NCBI GenBank assembly: GCA_012728015.1
Contig: JAAYFY010000026.1
Location: 1-60,219 of the forward strand
Direction of reading: 5' to 3'
Length of the DNA: 60,219 nt
Source: Clostridiaceae bacterium
GTDB lineage: Bacteria; Bacillota; Clostridia; DSM-8532
The notes under the pieces were generated by a model. That model worked only from the letters and a program-made list of their open reading frames with translations, was not told where the DNA came from and did not search any database. The translations under genes were made by a program, and so were the position numbers. Below are positions 458 to 59,894 of the stretch, piece by piece (position 1 is the stretch's first letter; every line of letters begins with the position of its first letter).

Positions 458-1516
458 ATGGGAGAAAGACTTCTTATGAAAGGCAATGAGGTTATTGCGG
501 AAGCCGCGATCCGTGCGGGATGCCGCCACTACTTCGGTTATCCCATCACGCCTCAGACAGAGATCGCACACTACATGGCAAAGAAGATGCCCAAGGTTGG
601 TGGAGTGTTCCTCCAGGCCGAGAGCGAGGTATCTGCCATCAACATGGTGTATGGAGCCGCATCGGCGGGTAAAAGGGTTATGACATCATCGTCGAGCCCC
701 GGGATAAGCTTAAAGCAGGAAGGCATATCCTATGCATCGGGAGCGCAGCTTCCCGCGGTTGTGGTAAACATAATGCGCGGAGGGCCCGGCCTTGGCGGAA
801 TCCAGCCGTCCCAGAGCGACTATTTCCAGGCCACCAAGGGCGGGGGCCATGGCGATTACCGCCTTATAGTCCTTGCGCCTTCAAGCGTCCAGGAACTCTA
901 TGAGCTTACAGTGGATGCCTTTAACCTTGCCGACCAGTACAGGATGGTGGCCATGATCTTAGGCGACGGCGTTTTAGGCCAGATGATGGAAGTTGTAAAC
1001 TTCCGGGACGAAGAGCCCATAGTAGATGCGGACAAGTCATGGGCAGCCTGCGGCCATGGCATGAAGCGCGAGCACAACACCATCACATCAATACATCTGG
1101 ATCCTGCCGTGCTGGAGCAGTGGAACCAGGCCCTGCAGAAAAAGTACAAAACCATATGCGAGAAGGAACAGCGCTATGAGCTGTACAAGACTGATGATGC
1201 CGATATTATAATTGTTGCCTATGGCTCTGTGGCGCGCATCGCCAAGAATGTGGTCCATGTGGCAAGGGAGGAAGGCTTAAAGGTAGGGCTTTTAAGGCCC
1301 ATAACCCTTTGGCCGTTCCCGACTAAAGCCTTTGAGCAGGTTATGGATAAGACCAGGGCATTTCTTACCGTTGAGATGAGCTCGGGTCAGATGCTCGAGG
1401 ATGTCATGCTGACGGTAAGCGGCAGAAAGCCCGTTTACTTCACAGGCAGGATGGGCGGCATGATTCCGAGGGTGGACGACATCATGGCGAAGATAAAGGA
1501 GATCAGCGCCGGCTGA
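458..1516 (+). CDS. korA: 2-oxoacid:ferredoxin oxidoreductase, alpha subunit
   Basis: The alpha subunit helps bind thiamine diphosphate and 2-oxoacid in the cytoplasmic Kor/Vor complex, which makes acyl-CoA, CO2 and reduced ferredoxin. The 352 residues match the usual length of separate alpha subunits. The family signatures are the N-terminal pyrimidine-binding domain (GNEVIAEAAIRAGCRHYFGY, then TPQTEIAHYM) and a C-terminal domain ending in GRMGGMIPRVDDIM. The ATG at 458 follows a strong GAGGAGGT; a TTG further upstream at 434 lies inside korD and is unlikely. It is followed by the beta subunit after 27 bases. 2-oxoglutarate and 3-methyl-2-oxobutanoate enzymes are hard to separate here, so the symbol is provisional. 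Confidence 0.85.
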   Translation: MGERLLMKGNEVIAEAAIRAGCRHYFGYPITPQTEIAHYMAKKMPKVGGVFLQAESEVSAINMVYGAASAGKRVMTSSSSPGISLKQEGISYASGAQLPAVVVNIMRGGPGLGGIQPSQSDYFQATKGGGHGDYRLIVLAPSSVQELYELTVDAFNLADQYRMVAMILGDGVLGQMMEVVNFRDEEPIVDADKSWAACGHGMKREHNTITSIHLDPAVLEQWNQALQKKYKTICEKEQRYELYKTDDADIIIVAYGSVARIAKNVVHVAREEGLKVGLLRPITLWPFPTKAFEQVMDKTRAFLTVEMSSGQMLEDVMLTVSGRKPVYFTGRMGGMIPRVDDIMAKIKEISAG

Positions 1517-7544: not shown

Positions 7545-8039
7545 TCATTCAATTGATATGCCAAGCGCCTCACTGATAATCCGGTTTTTTTTGACCAGGG
7601 CAATAAGCGGAAGGCCAAGGCAATAACAGATAATGGCTTCCGAAATGGCGATAAAAAGCATGGTAAGGGGCCAGGGATAGGTCCTGTCATACAAAAGGTA
7701 GACATACGTGCCCACGATGAGCCCGTTGAAAACCACGGGGGGCAGGGGGAGCAGAAAGGTACGCTTCTTAAGGAGCCAGGTTGAAAAACCGGCCAGGAGT
7801 GTCGCAAGGCTTCCAAAGACGATATCGGCCATACCGAACCCGCCGAGGAAATTTGCCAGGACGCATCCGACAAAAAGTCCGGGGATGGAAGCGGGTAGAA
7901 CTGCCGGAAGTACTGTGAGCACTTCAGAGATTCTGAACTGAATGGGGCCATAGGCAAGAGGTTTTATCAATAGTGTCAAAGACGCGTAAACCGCGGCAAT
8001 TACCGCAGCCTGGACAACGGTTCTGGTTTTAAGCTTCAT
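7545..8039 (-). CDS. queT: QueT family transporter, queuosine precursor uptake (ECF S-component)
   Basis: This 164-residue protein has about five hydrophobic spans and the QueT (DUF988) signature: YGPIQFRISEVLTVLPA near residue 30, then PGLFVGCVLANFLGG and DIVFGSLATLLAG. QueT proteins are substrate-binding components of energy-coupling factor transporters for queuine or preQ1. The ECF ATPase and T-component genes are not in this window. tgt and queA lie 17-19 kb to the right and use the imported base. The start follows GAAGGATG. The leader upstream is long and highly structured, which hints at control by premature termination. Confidence 0.82.
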   Translation of the reverse strand: MKLKTRTVVQAAVIAAVYASLTLLIKPLAYGPIQFRISEVLTVLPAVLPASIPGLFVGCVLANFLGGFGMADIVFGSLATLLAGFSTWLLKKRTFLLPLPPVVFNGLIVGTYVYLLYDRTYPWPLTMLFIAISEAIICYCLGLPLIALVKKNRIISEALGISIE

Positions 8040-8118
8040 GGTTCATCCTTCTTCCGCATGGAGGCCCATGCGGCCGGCCTTAATAACCTGAGCCGCCGGA
8101 AGCTCCGTAGTTTTGTTT

Positions 8119-8164
8119 CGGCTCAATAAAAAGGCCATAAGGCCGGGGCCTTTTTATTGAGCCG
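8119..8164 (-). terminator. 18-bp perfect hairpin in the queT leader, terminator-like
   Basis: CGGCTCAATAAAAAGGCC (8119-8136) is perfectly inverted at 8147-8164. Read on the minus strand, the GC core is followed by TTTTTATT, as in an intrinsic terminator. It stands 80 bases before the queT start codon and downstream of the likely queT promoter, so it could be an attenuator. Read on the plus strand it is equally symmetric. Confidence 0.65.
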
Positions 8165-8295
8165 GCCAGGATTTTGCGAACTGGCCGTGGGAATGCCACG
8201 GCAAGATTGTAACCTAAAAGGGCGCCAAAATCAACACGGGGATTCACCGCGCCCACAGGATAGTATTGTCCCATATGCCGCAAGGCTTATGCCCT
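8165..8295 (-). promoter_or_regulatory. Structured leader RNA upstream of queT, possible riboswitch
   Basis: On the minus strand this stretch folds into successive stems: GGGCGC with GCGCCC (about 8220-8254), CCGTGG with CCACGG (about 8185-8201) and GGCCAG with CTGGCC (about 8164-8187). The 18-bp terminator-like hairpin follows. QueT genes are often controlled by preQ1 riboswitches, but no preQ1-I consensus could be recognised, so the ligand is unknown. The whole 8040-8371 gap otherwise contains only the divergent promoters. A 67-codon open frame on the minus strand has no clear support. Confidence 0.35.
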
Positions 8296-8312
8296 GGGGC
8301 TTTATTTCGCTA

Positions 8313-8340
8313 TTGCCATGCATTGTCAATCTGATATAAT
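8313..8340 (+). promoter_or_regulatory. Promoter of the HD hydrolase gene
   Basis: TTGCCA (8313-8318) and TATAAT (8335-8340) have a 16-base spacer. A minus-strand TTGACA at 8324-8329 overlaps it and may be the -35 box of the divergent queT promoter. Confidence 0.6.
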
Positions 8341-8371
8341 TACCTTGAGAAGAAAGCTTTGGAGGTTGGCA

Positions 8372-8908
8372 TTGGATCGCGAAAAAGCGTTTGAAGCGTT
8401 AAAACTGAGAGTTGAGAGCCAGGACATCATCCTCCACAGCCTGGCTGTTGAAGCCATCATGAGAGCCCTGGCCAGGCATCTTCACGAAGACGTTGAATTG
8501 TGGGGGATTACCGGACTTGTTCACGATATTGATCTGGAAAGGGTCAACGGGGACATGGAAACCCATGGTATGCTGGGCGGAGACATCCTGGAAACCCTTG
8601 ATTTTGACCAGACCATTGCCTATGCCGTAAGGGCTCATAACCCCGCCAACAGCATTGCCAGGAGGAGGAGGCTGGATAAGGCTCTATATTGCGCGTCCCC
8701 CATGGCGAAGCTTATCATGGCGTGTGTTGAAAGCTCTCCCGAAAAATCCATCGACAGCGTGGACACCAAAAAGGTTATGAGTTGTTATGACGATCCACAT
8801 TTTGCGACCGATATAAAAAGGGACCGCATCGCCTCCTGCAGTGAGCTGGACTTAAGCGTTGAGGATTTCGCGGAGATCTCGCTTAAGGCTTTAAAGGAAA
8901 CCCTGTGA
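8372..8908 (+). CDS. HD superfamily hydrolase
   Basis: This 178-residue protein has the full set of HD-domain metal ligands. They are a first histidine in ILHSLAVEAIMRAL, the HD pair in GLVHDIDLERV, the THGMLGG segment and AVRAHN. The family (COG2316-like) is predicted to hydrolyse phosphate esters, possibly nucleotides, but no substrate is established. The start is a TTG at 8372 placed seven bases after GGAGG; upstream in-frame ATG codons lack ribosome binding sites and lie across the promoter. It is transcribed alone, between its own promoter and a terminator near 9024. Confidence 0.72.
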   Translation: MDREKAFEALKLRVESQDIILHSLAVEAIMRALARHLHEDVELWGITGLVHDIDLERVNGDMETHGMLGGDILETLDFDQTIAYAVRAHNPANSIARRRRLDKALYCASPMAKLIMACVESSPEKSIDSVDTKKVMSCYDDPHFATDIKRDRIASCSELDLSVEDFAEISLKALKETL

Positions 8909-24283: not shown

Positions 24284-25309
24284 ATGAAACTTAGGGACTT
24301 CTGGTATCCGCTCCCCAGCGAGCTTATAGCGCAGCACCCGGCAGAAAGGCGTGACCAGTCACGCCTTATTGTATTGAGCCGGAAGAATAAAAGCATGGTA
24401 CACAGGACCTTCCGGGATATCCATGAATACCTTGGGAAGGGTGATTGCCTGGTTATAAACAATACCCGGGTTATCCCTGCCCGGCTCCTGGGCGAGAAGG
24501 AAGGGACCGGCGGCAGTATAGAGTTTGTTTTGCTAAAAAGGCTGGAACCTGACGTATGGGAGGTCATACTAAAGCCGGGGCGCCGCGCCAGGGTCGGGAG
24601 CCGTTTTGTTTTCGGGGACGGAAGGCTTAAGACCGAGATCCTTAAGATCGTGGAACAGGGAAACCGCATCGTCAGGTTCCATTATGAAGGTGTATTTGAA
24701 GAAGTGCTGGACCAGGTGGGAATAGTGCCGCTTCCGCCCTACATCACCGCGGACCTTAAGGACAAGGAACGATACCAGACCATTTATTCCAGGGTAAATG
24801 GGTCGGCCGCCGCACCGACTGCCGGGCTCCACTTTACCGGGGAGCTGATGGACCTTCTGAAGGCAAAAGGGGTAGAGGTGGCCGAGGTTACCCTGCATGT
24901 GGGACTTGGGACATTCAGGCCGGTTAAGACCGAAAACATAGAGGAACATCACATGCACAAGGAATTCTACAGTATCCCTGAACAGGCCTGCGAGACAATA
25001 AACCGGGCCCGGAAACGCCATAACAGGGTGATCGCTGTGGGTACCACCAGCGTCCGGGTGCTGGAAACCGCGGCCGACGACCAGGGACTGGTCCGCCCGG
25101 GTCAGGGCGAAACCGACATATTCATCTATCCAGGGTACAGGTTTAAGGTGATAGATGCGCTTATCACCAACTTCCACCTTCCCGAGTCCACCCTTATTAT
25201 GCTGGTTTGCGCCTTCGCGGGGCGGGATTTCATTATCGAAGCGTATAAAGAGGCTATTGAACAGAGGTACCGCTTTTTCAGCTTCGGTGACGCAATGTTT
25301 ATTTATTAG
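24284..25309 (+). CDS. queA: S-adenosylmethionine:tRNA ribosyltransferase-isomerase QueA
   Basis: QueA transfers and rearranges the ribose of S-adenosylmethionine onto preQ1 in tRNA, giving epoxyqueuosine. The 341-residue protein has the family blocks [58 protein letters not shown] and [11 protein letters not shown]. It lies about one kilobase before tgt, with one membrane-protein gene between them. The presence of QueA suggests the cell works from preQ1 rather than only salvaging queuine. Confidence 0.93.
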
Positions 25310-26262: not shown

Positions 26263-27396
<1,134 letters not shown>

Positions 27397-57833: not shown

Positions 57834-59894
57834 ATGACCAGGCAGGAAAGAATGAAATATGATGAAAGAGCCAGGGAAATTGTGAGGAAGATGACCTTTG
57901 AGGAGAAAGTACACCTCATGAGCGGTTCTCTTACCCCGCAGAAGATGCTGGAGGATTTCAGCACTCCGGGATACCATTACAATATGGTGCCGTATCCGGC
58001 CGGCGGGAATGAGAGACAGGGCGTACCAAGTCTCAGGTTCTGCGATGGCCCCAGGGGCGTGGTATGCGGGAACAGCACCTGTTTCCCTGTCACCATGGGA
58101 AGGGGCGCCACCTTTGATACCGACCTGGAGGAAAGAGTGGGAAAGGCCATCGGACGCGAGATAAGGGCCCATGGCGGGAACTTCTACGGCGGTGTTTGCA
58201 TCAATCTGCCTTATAACCCGGGATGGGGAAGAAGCCAGGAGGTATATGGCGAGGATTCGTTCCACCTGGGCGAAATGGGAAGGGCATTGGTCCGCGGCGT
58301 TCAGAGCCAGAATGTCTTGGCATGCATAAAGCATTATGCGTTCAACAGCATGGAGATATCACGGTTTAAGGTCAGTGTAACATGTGACAAAAGGACTGAA
58401 CAGGAGGTATTCCTGCCCCATTTCAAGGCATGCATCGATGAAGGGGCAGCCAGTGTCATGACTGCCTACAACCTTTACAATCAGGTGCATTGCGGGCACA
58501 GTGAATACCTGCTGGAAAAGGTATTGCGGGAAGATTGGAGATTCGATGGCATCGTAATCAGCGACTTTGTCTGGGGCATCAAGGATACAGTGGCAGCCGC
58601 CAACGGCGGAATGAACGTTGAGATGCCATGTACAATGCTTTTTGGCGACAGGCTTGTGAAAGCGGTGAGGGACGGTTTTGTGCCCGAGGAAAAGATAAAT
58701 AAGGCGGCTGTATGTATAATCCGCACACTGCTGGCTTTCGAGGAAGCGCCCGATCCCGAGGGATACCCCGAAAGTGTAATATGCTGCGAAGAACACATAA
58801 AACTGGCCCTGGAATGCGCCCGAAAATCAATCACACTTATGAAGAACGAAAGTGTGCTGCCCTTTGACTCCTCGGTGAAGAAGGTGGCAGTGATCGGAAG
58901 GCTGGCGGACAAGGAGAACATCGGAGACCACGGCTCCAGCCGGGTATTTCCGCCCTATGTCGTGACCATTCCGCAGGCCCTGAGAAAGCGCGGCCTTGAG
59001 GTTGTGGTTTGCGATGGTTCTGATGCTGAAAAGGCGAGGAAGGCAGCGGCTTTTGCCGATGCGGTGCTTATCGTGGCAGGATATGACCATGACGATGAAG
59101 GGGAGTATGTTGCTCCGGAGCAGACTTCTGATATGGGTGGGACAACACTTGACAGCATAGGCGGTGACAGGGAATGCCTTGGGCTTAAGGTTGAAGAAGC
59201 TGCCTTGATCAACACTATCGGCAGGGTAAATCCGAAAACGGCAGTTGTGCTCATCGGGGGTAATACCATTATTACCTCCAACTTCGATCACAATGTTCCC
59301 GCAATGCTGATGGCCTACTATCCCGGCATGGAAGGCGGCACGGCAATAGCTGAGATTGTCTTCGGGGATGTCAACCCTTCAGGCAAGTTGCCCTTCGTGG
59401 TGCCATACAGCGCTGATGATCTGCCATATGTAAACTGGAATACCGACCAGCAGCACTACGAGTACTACCATGGCTATGCCAGGCTGGACAAGAGGGGAAT
59501 CAGACCTGAATACCCGTACGGCTTTGGCCTGAGCTATACTACATTCTCAGTGTCAAGTCCCGCGGTCAGTATCGGAAATGACGGGATTTCCGTGTCCTGC
59601 AGGGTTAAGAATACCGGAAGGGTCTCCGGGGACGAAGTGGTCCAGTTGTACATCGGGTTTGAGAATTCGAAAATCGACCGGCCCAAGAAACTGCTGCGCG
59701 GGTTCAGGCGTGTTTCCCTCGATCCGGGAGAAGAGAAGGAAATAGCCATATTATGCCCCTTTGAGAAGCTGATGTATTATGACCCGGTATATGCGGTGTG
59801 GAGGCTTGAAGACATCGTATACAGGGCATACATCGGAACCAGTAGCGACATGAAAGATCTTTTGGCTCTTGATTTTAGGCTTAACCAGGCATAA
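57834..59894 (+). CDS. Glycoside hydrolase family 3 protein, second type
   Basis: A 686-residue GH3 enzyme without a signal peptide. The catalytic domain has SLRFCDGPRGVV, YNPGWGRSQEVYGEDSFHLG, CIKHYAFNSME and the nucleophile D244 in IVISDFVWGIK. The sandwich domain with SITLMKNESVLPF and VFGDVNPSGKLPFVV and the C-terminal fibronectin III-like domain (VVQLYIGFENSKIDRPKKLL) follow. Its domain order and subfamily differ from the first GH3 protein. It therefore probably cleaves a different linkage of the same imported material. ATG 57834 follows AAAAGGGGAGG. Confidence 0.87.
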   Translation: MTRQERMKYDERAREIVRKMTFEEKVHLMSGSLTPQKMLEDFSTPGYHYNMVPYPAGGNERQGVPSLRFCDGPRGVVCGNSTCFPVTMGRGATFDTDLEERVGKAIGREIRAHGGNFYGGVCINLPYNPGWGRSQEVYGEDSFHLGEMGRALVRGVQSQNVLACIKHYAFNSMEISRFKVSVTCDKRTEQEVFLPHFKACIDEGAASVMTAYNLYNQVHCGHSEYLLEKVLREDWRFDGIVISDFVWGIKDTVAAANGGMNVEMPCTMLFGDRLVKAVRDGFVPEEKINKAAVCIIRTLLAFEEAPDPEGYPESVICCEEHIKLALECARKSITLMKNESVLPFDSSVKKVAVIGRLADKENIGDHGSSRVFPPYVVTIPQALRKRGLEVVVCDGSDAEKARKAAAFADAVLIVAGYDHDDEGEYVAPEQTSDMGGTTLDSIGGDRECLGLKVEEAALINTIGRVNPKTAVVLIGGNTIITSNFDHNVPAMLMAYYPGMEGGTAIAEIVFGDVNPSGKLPFVVPYSADDLPYVNWNTDQQHYEYYHGYARLDKRGIRPEYPYGFGLSYTTFSVSSPAVSIGNDGISVSCRVKNTGRVSGDEVVQLYIGFENSKIDRPKKLLRGFRRVSLDPGEEKEIAILCPFEKLMYYDPVYAVWRLEDIVYRAYIGTSSDMKDLLALDFRLNQA

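Follow-up and report, generated by a model that had tools for sequence, protein, structure and literature searches.

The 60,219-nucleotide stretch of Clostridiaceae genomic DNA analysed here (the window) raises the question of what a strong hairpin is doing in front of queT, whose product is identified as QueT by a PF06177 match (E = 7.6e-46). The first-pass annotation had described a densely folded queT leader with a perfect 18-bp, terminator-like hairpin, T-rich in its 3′ arm, about 80 bases before the start codon. The hairpin is present on the minus strand (arms 8164–8147 and 8136–8119, 10-nt loop, T-rich 3′ arm) with its 3′ end 79 nt upstream of the queT ATG at 8039. The dense folding also held, since minus-strand 8104–8199 (z = −5.6) and 8040–8199 (z = −3.6) each folded better than all of 200 dinucleotide shuffles, and the leader is structured, conserved and covarying. 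Judged from sequence comparison, the leader is very probably a preQ1-I type I aptamer that bears a hairpin at the P1 end before L3 and controls queT (Table 1). The 18-bp hairpin is most likely an insertion within this aptamer, neither a terminator nor the sign of a new preQ1 class.

Table 1. Predicted elements of the queT leader and related genes in the window
Feature	Position	Strand	Basis or remark
queT	7545–8039	minus	164 aa; PF06177; ATG at 8039
Likely Shine-Dalgarno AAGAAGGAU	8045–8053	minus	sequence
P5 hairpin CCGCAUGG-GCCU-CCAUGCGG	8054–8073	minus	fold; abuts Shine-Dalgarno region
PK2 helix S2: CCGGC 8099–8095 with GCCGG 8078–8074	8074–8099	minus	parse and covariation
PK2 helix S1: GAGC 8105–8102 with GCUC 8093–8090	8090–8105	minus	parse and covariation
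A-rich L3 and P2 3′ strand AAACAAAACUACG	8106–8118	minus	comparison and covariance model
Inserted hairpin, 17–18 bp, 10-nt loop	8119–8164	minus	between P1 and A-rich tail; C8164 common to P1
Aptamer P1 3′ strand CUGGCC	8164–8169	minus	fold
Aptamer loop UUCGCAAAAUC	8170–8180	minus	UU after P1 5′ strand, UC before P1 3′ strand
Aptamer P1 5′ strand GGCCAG	8181–8186	minus	final G is pocket-floor G5
P0, 5′-terminal hairpin GUGG-CAUUC-CCAC	8187–8199	minus	fold; abuts P1
Sigma-70-like promoter TTGATT-17-TACAAT	8206–8234	minus	9/12 matches; start expected near 8199
queA and tgt	24293–25303 and 26320–27381	plus	same contig, about 16 kb from queT

The queT promoter call is weak on its own, three such sites being found in the region against 1.9 expected. 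It is strengthened by the near-constant spot of a TANAAT box upstream of the aptamer in all 26 leaders examined from the window's family, f1 (31–34 nt upstream of the loop in the window's genus g1 and its sister genus g2, 21 nt in other genera). Since this promoter (8234–8206) predicts a start near 8199, only P0 (8199–8187) and P1 (8186–8164) would precede the hairpin, rather than the three consecutive stems that had been proposed. Likewise, the leader had been drawn over 8119–8295, of which 8206–8295 is mostly promoter and upstream DNA. The promoter-based start lies upstream of the hairpin; a start downstream of it had been named by the first-pass annotation as fatal to its reading. At the P0 position, the best stem abutted P1 or overlapped its outer pairs in 14 of the 18 g1/g2 leaders, counted without a shuffle control. 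On the other side of the intergenic region, the divergent HD-domain gene has its own promoter (TTGCCA-16-TATAAT, 8305–8340 plus strand, 11/12 matches), and the sequence TTTCGCTATTGC surrounding its −35 box, retained in three of four sister leaders, might contain an operator.

On the minus strand, P1 encloses the loop UUCGCAAAAUC, the hairpin follows immediately, and then comes the tail AAACAAAACUACGG. Related queT leaders have in common a stem around UUCGCAA(A/U)AUC, a variable hairpin and an A-rich tail ending in CUACG, and the same kind of stem and tail without the hairpin makes up the ordinary preQ1-I type I aptamer in other Clostridia families. In sequence, the P1 stem, the UUC...UC loop and the AAACAAAACUA tail agree with those of insert-free queT aptamers. 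The type I signature is UU after the P1 5′ strand and UC before the 3′ strand (type I passages of PMC11625349), and the structure passages of PMC8752633 likewise support UU, UC and C before UA. In the window, P1 has its G-C pair at the pocket floor, UU and UC stand at these same two places, and the A-rich L3 ends in C-U-A (AAACAAAACUACG, 8118–8106); by manual placement, it also has counterparts of residues U6, U7, U16, C17, A30 and C31 as numbered in the structure passages of PMC8752633. L3 does not follow P1 directly as in a plain two-stem H-type pseudoknot, a hairpin of 44–46 nt intervening, and the window leader was therefore filed as a variant in which L3 is separated from P1 and P2 is putative. 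Thus the preQ1-I consensus, which the first-pass annotation could not fit, fits as type I once the hairpin is taken to be inserted after P1, ahead of the A-rich L3.

The window loop falls one base short of the usual 12, and it has no CC, a dinucleotide that in most other members is able to pair with GG. A CUACG tail was found in all 32 short-loop aptamers (25 from f1, 7 others) vs 25 of 78 aptamers with other loops, and few P2 pairs vary. The short loop without CC suggests that P2 here consists of CG/CG plus non-canonical contacts. P1 shows pair changes among the leaders, but the counts of its pairing are biased, since the motif scan required at least four Watson-Crick pairs.

We built a covariance model with only P1 paired, using every second one (38) of the 76 distinct insert-free queT aptamers and none from f1. 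Its top match in the 60-kb window was 8103–8162 (19.2 bits, E = 0.0018), the tail half, in which the tail fits the consensus and the hairpin arms take the place of P1. The second was the P1-loop half at 8164–8186 (12.1 bits, E = 0.13), which ties with a chance match at 59889. The two matches share strand and stand in the right order with the hairpin between them. With filters off over 7900–8500, the tail (8103–8122) scored 17.0 bits and the P1-loop half 12.2 bits, all others staying below 1 bit. Each of 31 relatives with an insert had at least one half found in its leader at E up to 10 (8 of 31 at E < 0.0001), and three decayed leaders scored 7.9–12.8 bits under the same model.

The leader was also scanned with the Rfam preQ1 models, as the first-pass annotation had suggested, and none of preQ1-I, II and III matched it. 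Even at E up to 5, RF00522 (preQ1-I) did not pick up the window leader. On 11 relative loci, 10 of them insert-free, it matched six, all insert-free, at 21.6–25.2 bits against a cut-off of 39, and at that cut-off none of 61 relative genomes passed. Since insert-free relatives also score well under the cut-off, the miss in the window says little. More generally, many of the queT leaders surveyed carry clear type I aptamers, and the RF00522 model or threshold seems to undercount this type in Clostridia. RF01054 (preQ1-II) and RF02680 (preQ1-III) had no match in the window at gathering score and none in the leader at E up to 5, nor did they match in 30 distinct relative loci (20 at gathering score, 8 of those again at E up to 5, and 11 at E up to 10), so that the earlier suggestion of another preQ1 class gained no support. 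A ZTP-like Rfam match at 8057–8129 (19.8 bits, E = 0.56) was set aside, being below its cut-off of 39 and resting on the hairpin arm and G+C-rich words of PK2, the second pseudoknot.

The spread of the motif was surveyed in queT leaders from 98 regions, hand-picked among the matches listed, together with earlier loci; 264 genomes had a match in all. Scanning 238 leaders left 215 after removal of those shorter than 150 nt, with an identical aptamer core or with identical last 150 nt, and two copies of the window (L031, L032) had been left out of the 238. The loop and tail motif was recognised in family leaders first and then used to write the scan. A simple scan found it in 113 of the 215 distinct leaders, 34 with a P1-tail gap of at least 15 nt, and in none of 5 x 215 dinucleotide shuffles; stricter criteria left 110 motif leaders, 33 with an insert. 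The gap was 1–7 nt or at least 15 nt and never 8–14 nt in the 215 leaders. Among the strict inserts, 25 of 33 were in f1 and eight elsewhere: three in f52 (L179, L235, L262), one each in f61 (L183), f26 (L199), f66 (L210) and f18 (L261), and L055, titled Lachnospiraceae and without a family label, so that inserts occur in at least five families beyond f1. Five short hairpins (L016, L017, L018, L021, L023) of the 33 are individually non-significant, since more than 5% of shuffles fold as well. Both states occur within genus g32, where L199 is inserted and L196, L226 and L227 are insert-free with the same P1 and loop.

Within f1, the exact loop pattern had one copy in each of 26 of 32 genomes, against 0 for the reversed control. 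Of the six genomes without it, G005 and G013 had no QueT match, G020 (L009) has the motif with a one-base P1 variant, and G007, G010 and G015 have QueT behind decayed or divergent leaders (L019, L020, L024). The motif thus precedes queT in 27 of 30 QueT-bearing family genomes. In L020 and L024 (genus g7), the promoter and the AAACUACGGGAG tail are kept, P1 and loop are lost or scrambled and queT remains; in G019 of the same genus the aptamer is intact. A broken queT as the cause of the decayed G010 and G015 aptamers was rejected, the flagged stop lying outside the aligned stretch (query 8–142 and 8–144). The nearest named relative among 80 loci is Thermoclostridium caenicola (L036; QueT identity 83%). 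A class-wide pattern written for a 12-nt loop, and therefore missing the 11-nt loop of f1, matched 3 of 391 genomes against 14 for the reversed control and was discarded as lacking specificity; one of its three matches, in G279 (L141/L261), proved to be a genuine inserted aptamer followed by queT, and the other two look like chance. Two other loci are worth recording. L028 (genome G058) has a THF riboswitch (Rfam, 82 bits; 1301–1408 minus strand) just downstream of queT, and L094 has an ordinary type I queT leader with the tail CUACGGU, followed downstream by ACCGUAG and a second CUACGGUUU, a layout as for an antiterminator/terminator pair.

PreQ1 had been named as the likely ligand, and type I aptamer features, queT downstream and the presence of tgt and queA without a QueC match all point to it. 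The QueC model TIGR00364 had no match in the genome (99.87% complete) at E up to 0.001, so preQ1 or preQ0 probably must be imported, and the source bacterium, with tgt and queA, is plausibly a preQ1 salvager. It is improbable that the preQ1-I-like scaffold senses another 7-deazapurine or related base, such as preQ0, queuine or guanine. The UUCGCAAWAUC subtype does have a shorter loop, no CC and an altered P2, and the ceiling position A12 is without certain placement; however, both preQ1 sites retain counterparts of their pocket residues, the gene is queT, queA and tgt without a QueC match make preQ1 the useful import, and the same subtype occurs insert-free before queT in other families (L155, L161, L257, L263).

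Downstream of the preQ1-I aptamer, the leaders fall into two layouts. In g3, g5, g6 and g7, the tail continues without a break into the Shine-Dalgarno sequence, reading CUACGGAGG in eight of nine leaders and CUACGGGAGA in L025; AAACUACG starts 17–30 nt upstream of the start codon in the 8 leaders measured. A tail fused to the ribosome site is the usual class I layout for translational control. In f1, the span from P1 to AAACUACG is 42–50 nt in g1 and 14–35 nt in other genera. The g1 and g2 leaders have their ribosome site about 50 nt further downstream, with the H-type pseudoknot PK2 in between (GAGC-UU-CCGGC-G-GCUC-L3-GCCGG in the window). A strict parse recovered PK2 in 17 of the 18 g1/g2 leaders, for each of which 0–9 of 200 mononucleotide shuffles scored as high; in the remaining leader, L006, S1 appears by eye shorter and shifted by one base. 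A stem of 6–9 bp stands at the P5 position in 18 of 18 g1/g2 leaders, again counted without a shuffle control. In the window, P2, S1/S2, P5 and the Shine-Dalgarno sequence follow one another without a free linker (8106/8105, 8074/8073, 8054/8053).

Covariation of PK2 was evaluated on an unfitted MAFFT alignment of 17 of the 18 tails, L004 being omitted because its tail is identical to that of L003. Paired cells (94.1% vs 88.3% shuffled), covariation score (0.301 vs 0.186) and cells changed on both sides (15 vs 6.2) were reached by none of 500 shuffles, and slid versions of PK2 were at most 49% paired. On the other hand, pairs with both-side change (4 vs 2.3, reached by 33 of 500) and further pair types (9 vs 8.9, reached by 342 of 500) did not clear the shuffles. 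Since two of five measures fail, we regard the PK2 covariation as moderate. Covariation among homologous leaders was thus found, whereas its absence had been named beforehand as evidence against the first-pass reading. Two competing pairings were tried and rejected: a hairpin of the tail CGG with the PK2 CCG as the ligand-free form, which is not conserved, five of 18 leaders having a base other than G directly behind CUACG, and pairing of the Shine-Dalgarno sequence with UUCC of PK2, judged by eye not to be conserved. In three of those five leaders (L002, L015, L016), the base after CUACG changes together with its S1 partner. The analysis turned up no alternative fold that would bury the Shine-Dalgarno site.

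PK2 might instead be a second aptamer in a tandem riboswitch, a reading compatible with the aptamer part of ours. What speaks for it is a compact H-type pseudoknot in 17 of 18 g1/g2 leaders, above most shuffles and with covariation. We nevertheless consider it unlikely, since few bases beyond the paired CCGG are invariant and the PK2 L3 varies in length and sequence (17 tails), the window leader has no Rfam match, and PK2 abuts P2 without a linker, as suits an expression platform.

The hairpin that precedes the tail could also be, as the first-pass annotation supposed, the intrinsic terminator of queT under an upstream sensor, given its strength and the UUUUUAUU in its 3′ arm, and preQ1 riboswitches elsewhere do act on transcription (passages of PMC11625349). 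An intrinsic terminator, however, has a G+C-rich stem followed by an unpaired U-tract on the transcribed strand, whereas here the T-run sits within the paired 3′ arm and GAGCCG follows it. The terminator scan listed zero minus-strand terminator-like sites between promoter and start codon, which makes termination at this leader unlikely; only a weak 5-pair plus-strand site at 8139–8152 was listed in the leader. The inserts of four sister species contain no run of four T, and the hairpin lies within the aptamer rather than downstream of it. The terminator-like label is thus not borne out, and a transcription attenuator appears very unlikely. The remaining reading, a mobile or REP-like element or a bidirectional terminator for the divergent gene, is suggested by the near-palindrome, strong on both strands, and by the weak plus-strand terminator call, but is hardly credible, because a genome search finds the hairpin itself and its own inverse with no second copy, all four g1 relatives have an insert of differing sequence at the same place, and the promoter of the divergent gene (8313–8340 plus) starts downstream of the hairpin and is directed away from it. 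The window insert folded better than each of 200 mononucleotide shuffles. Insert length and sequence differ among relatives, and by sequence comparison the hairpin is a variable, tolerated insertion in the preQ1-I aptamer.

With the hairpin taken as an insertion, the leader would repress queT, probably at the level of translation. By analogy with known class I riboswitches, preQ1 would bind between P1 and P2 and lock the tail CUACG into P2, with repression as the outcome. The hairpin may stack on P1 or point outward, away from the pocket. In g3, g5, g6 and g7, where the tail is continuous with the Shine-Dalgarno sequence, this would block translation directly. In g1 and g2, the P2 strand abuts S1, and P2 made by the ligand might steady the stack of PK2 and P5, lowering ribosome access, and preQ1 would thereby shut off its own importer. 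A relay of the ligand signal through PK2 to the ribosome site is, in our view, a tentative proposal with the odds somewhat against it.

The window leader can be compared with the known preQ1 riboswitches. Like preQ1-I type I (RF00522; Carnobacterium antarcticum structure), it has the G-C floor of P1, UU and UC, an A-rich L3 with C before UA, and a position before queT; unlike it, it has a 17–18 bp hairpin between P1 and L3, a loop one base shorter without CC, and a P2 tail that is not fused to the Shine-Dalgarno sequence but leads into PK2 and then P5. PreQ1-II (RF01054) is also a pseudoknot before queT in which an additional hairpin separates the first stem from the returning strand. The insert recalls P4 of this class, deletion of which had only a minor effect on binding (class II passages of PMC11625349); preQ1-II differs in its HLout fold and pocket bases, whereas the window loop and tail follow class I, and has no Rfam match here. 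PreQ1-III (RF02680) occurs before queT in Clostridia with two pseudoknots and a Shine-Dalgarno sequence far from the pocket (class III passages of PMC11625349), all of which the window shares; however, an anti-Shine-Dalgarno loop of class III is predicted to pair with the Shine-Dalgarno sequence, which PK2 does not, and this class too has no Rfam match here. Three-stemmed H-type pseudoknots have an extra stem embedded in a loop, as here, and the passages of PMC11262651 name fluoride and preQ1-II as examples, class I being absent from those named there. In the portions of the literature covered, which do not extend to the 2014 survey defining the types, no mention was found of an inserted, additional or extra hairpin in preQ1-I riboswitches, and the word 'insertion' is absent from the main text of the 2024 review (PMC11625349) and of the type I structure paper (PMC8752633).

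A natural form with up to 18 bp between its halves points to a fold that can accept large insertions at a single fixed position. Such a form offers a starting point for engineering or crystallisation and goes some way towards explaining why these leaders are missed in model searches. The displaced Shine-Dalgarno sequence and PK2 raise the question of how the signal crosses about 50 nt to the ribosome. The preQ1-I class is noted for its small aptamer. It is conceivable, though in our view less likely than not, that this smallest riboswitch aptamer class repeatedly became a three-stem pseudoknot by acquiring a hairpin after P1, ahead of L3, and so came by convergence to resemble class II in layout, and that Thermoclostridium and its sister genus lost the built-in ribosome site and gained a relay of PK2 and a hairpin, which would be a new expression platform for preQ1-I.
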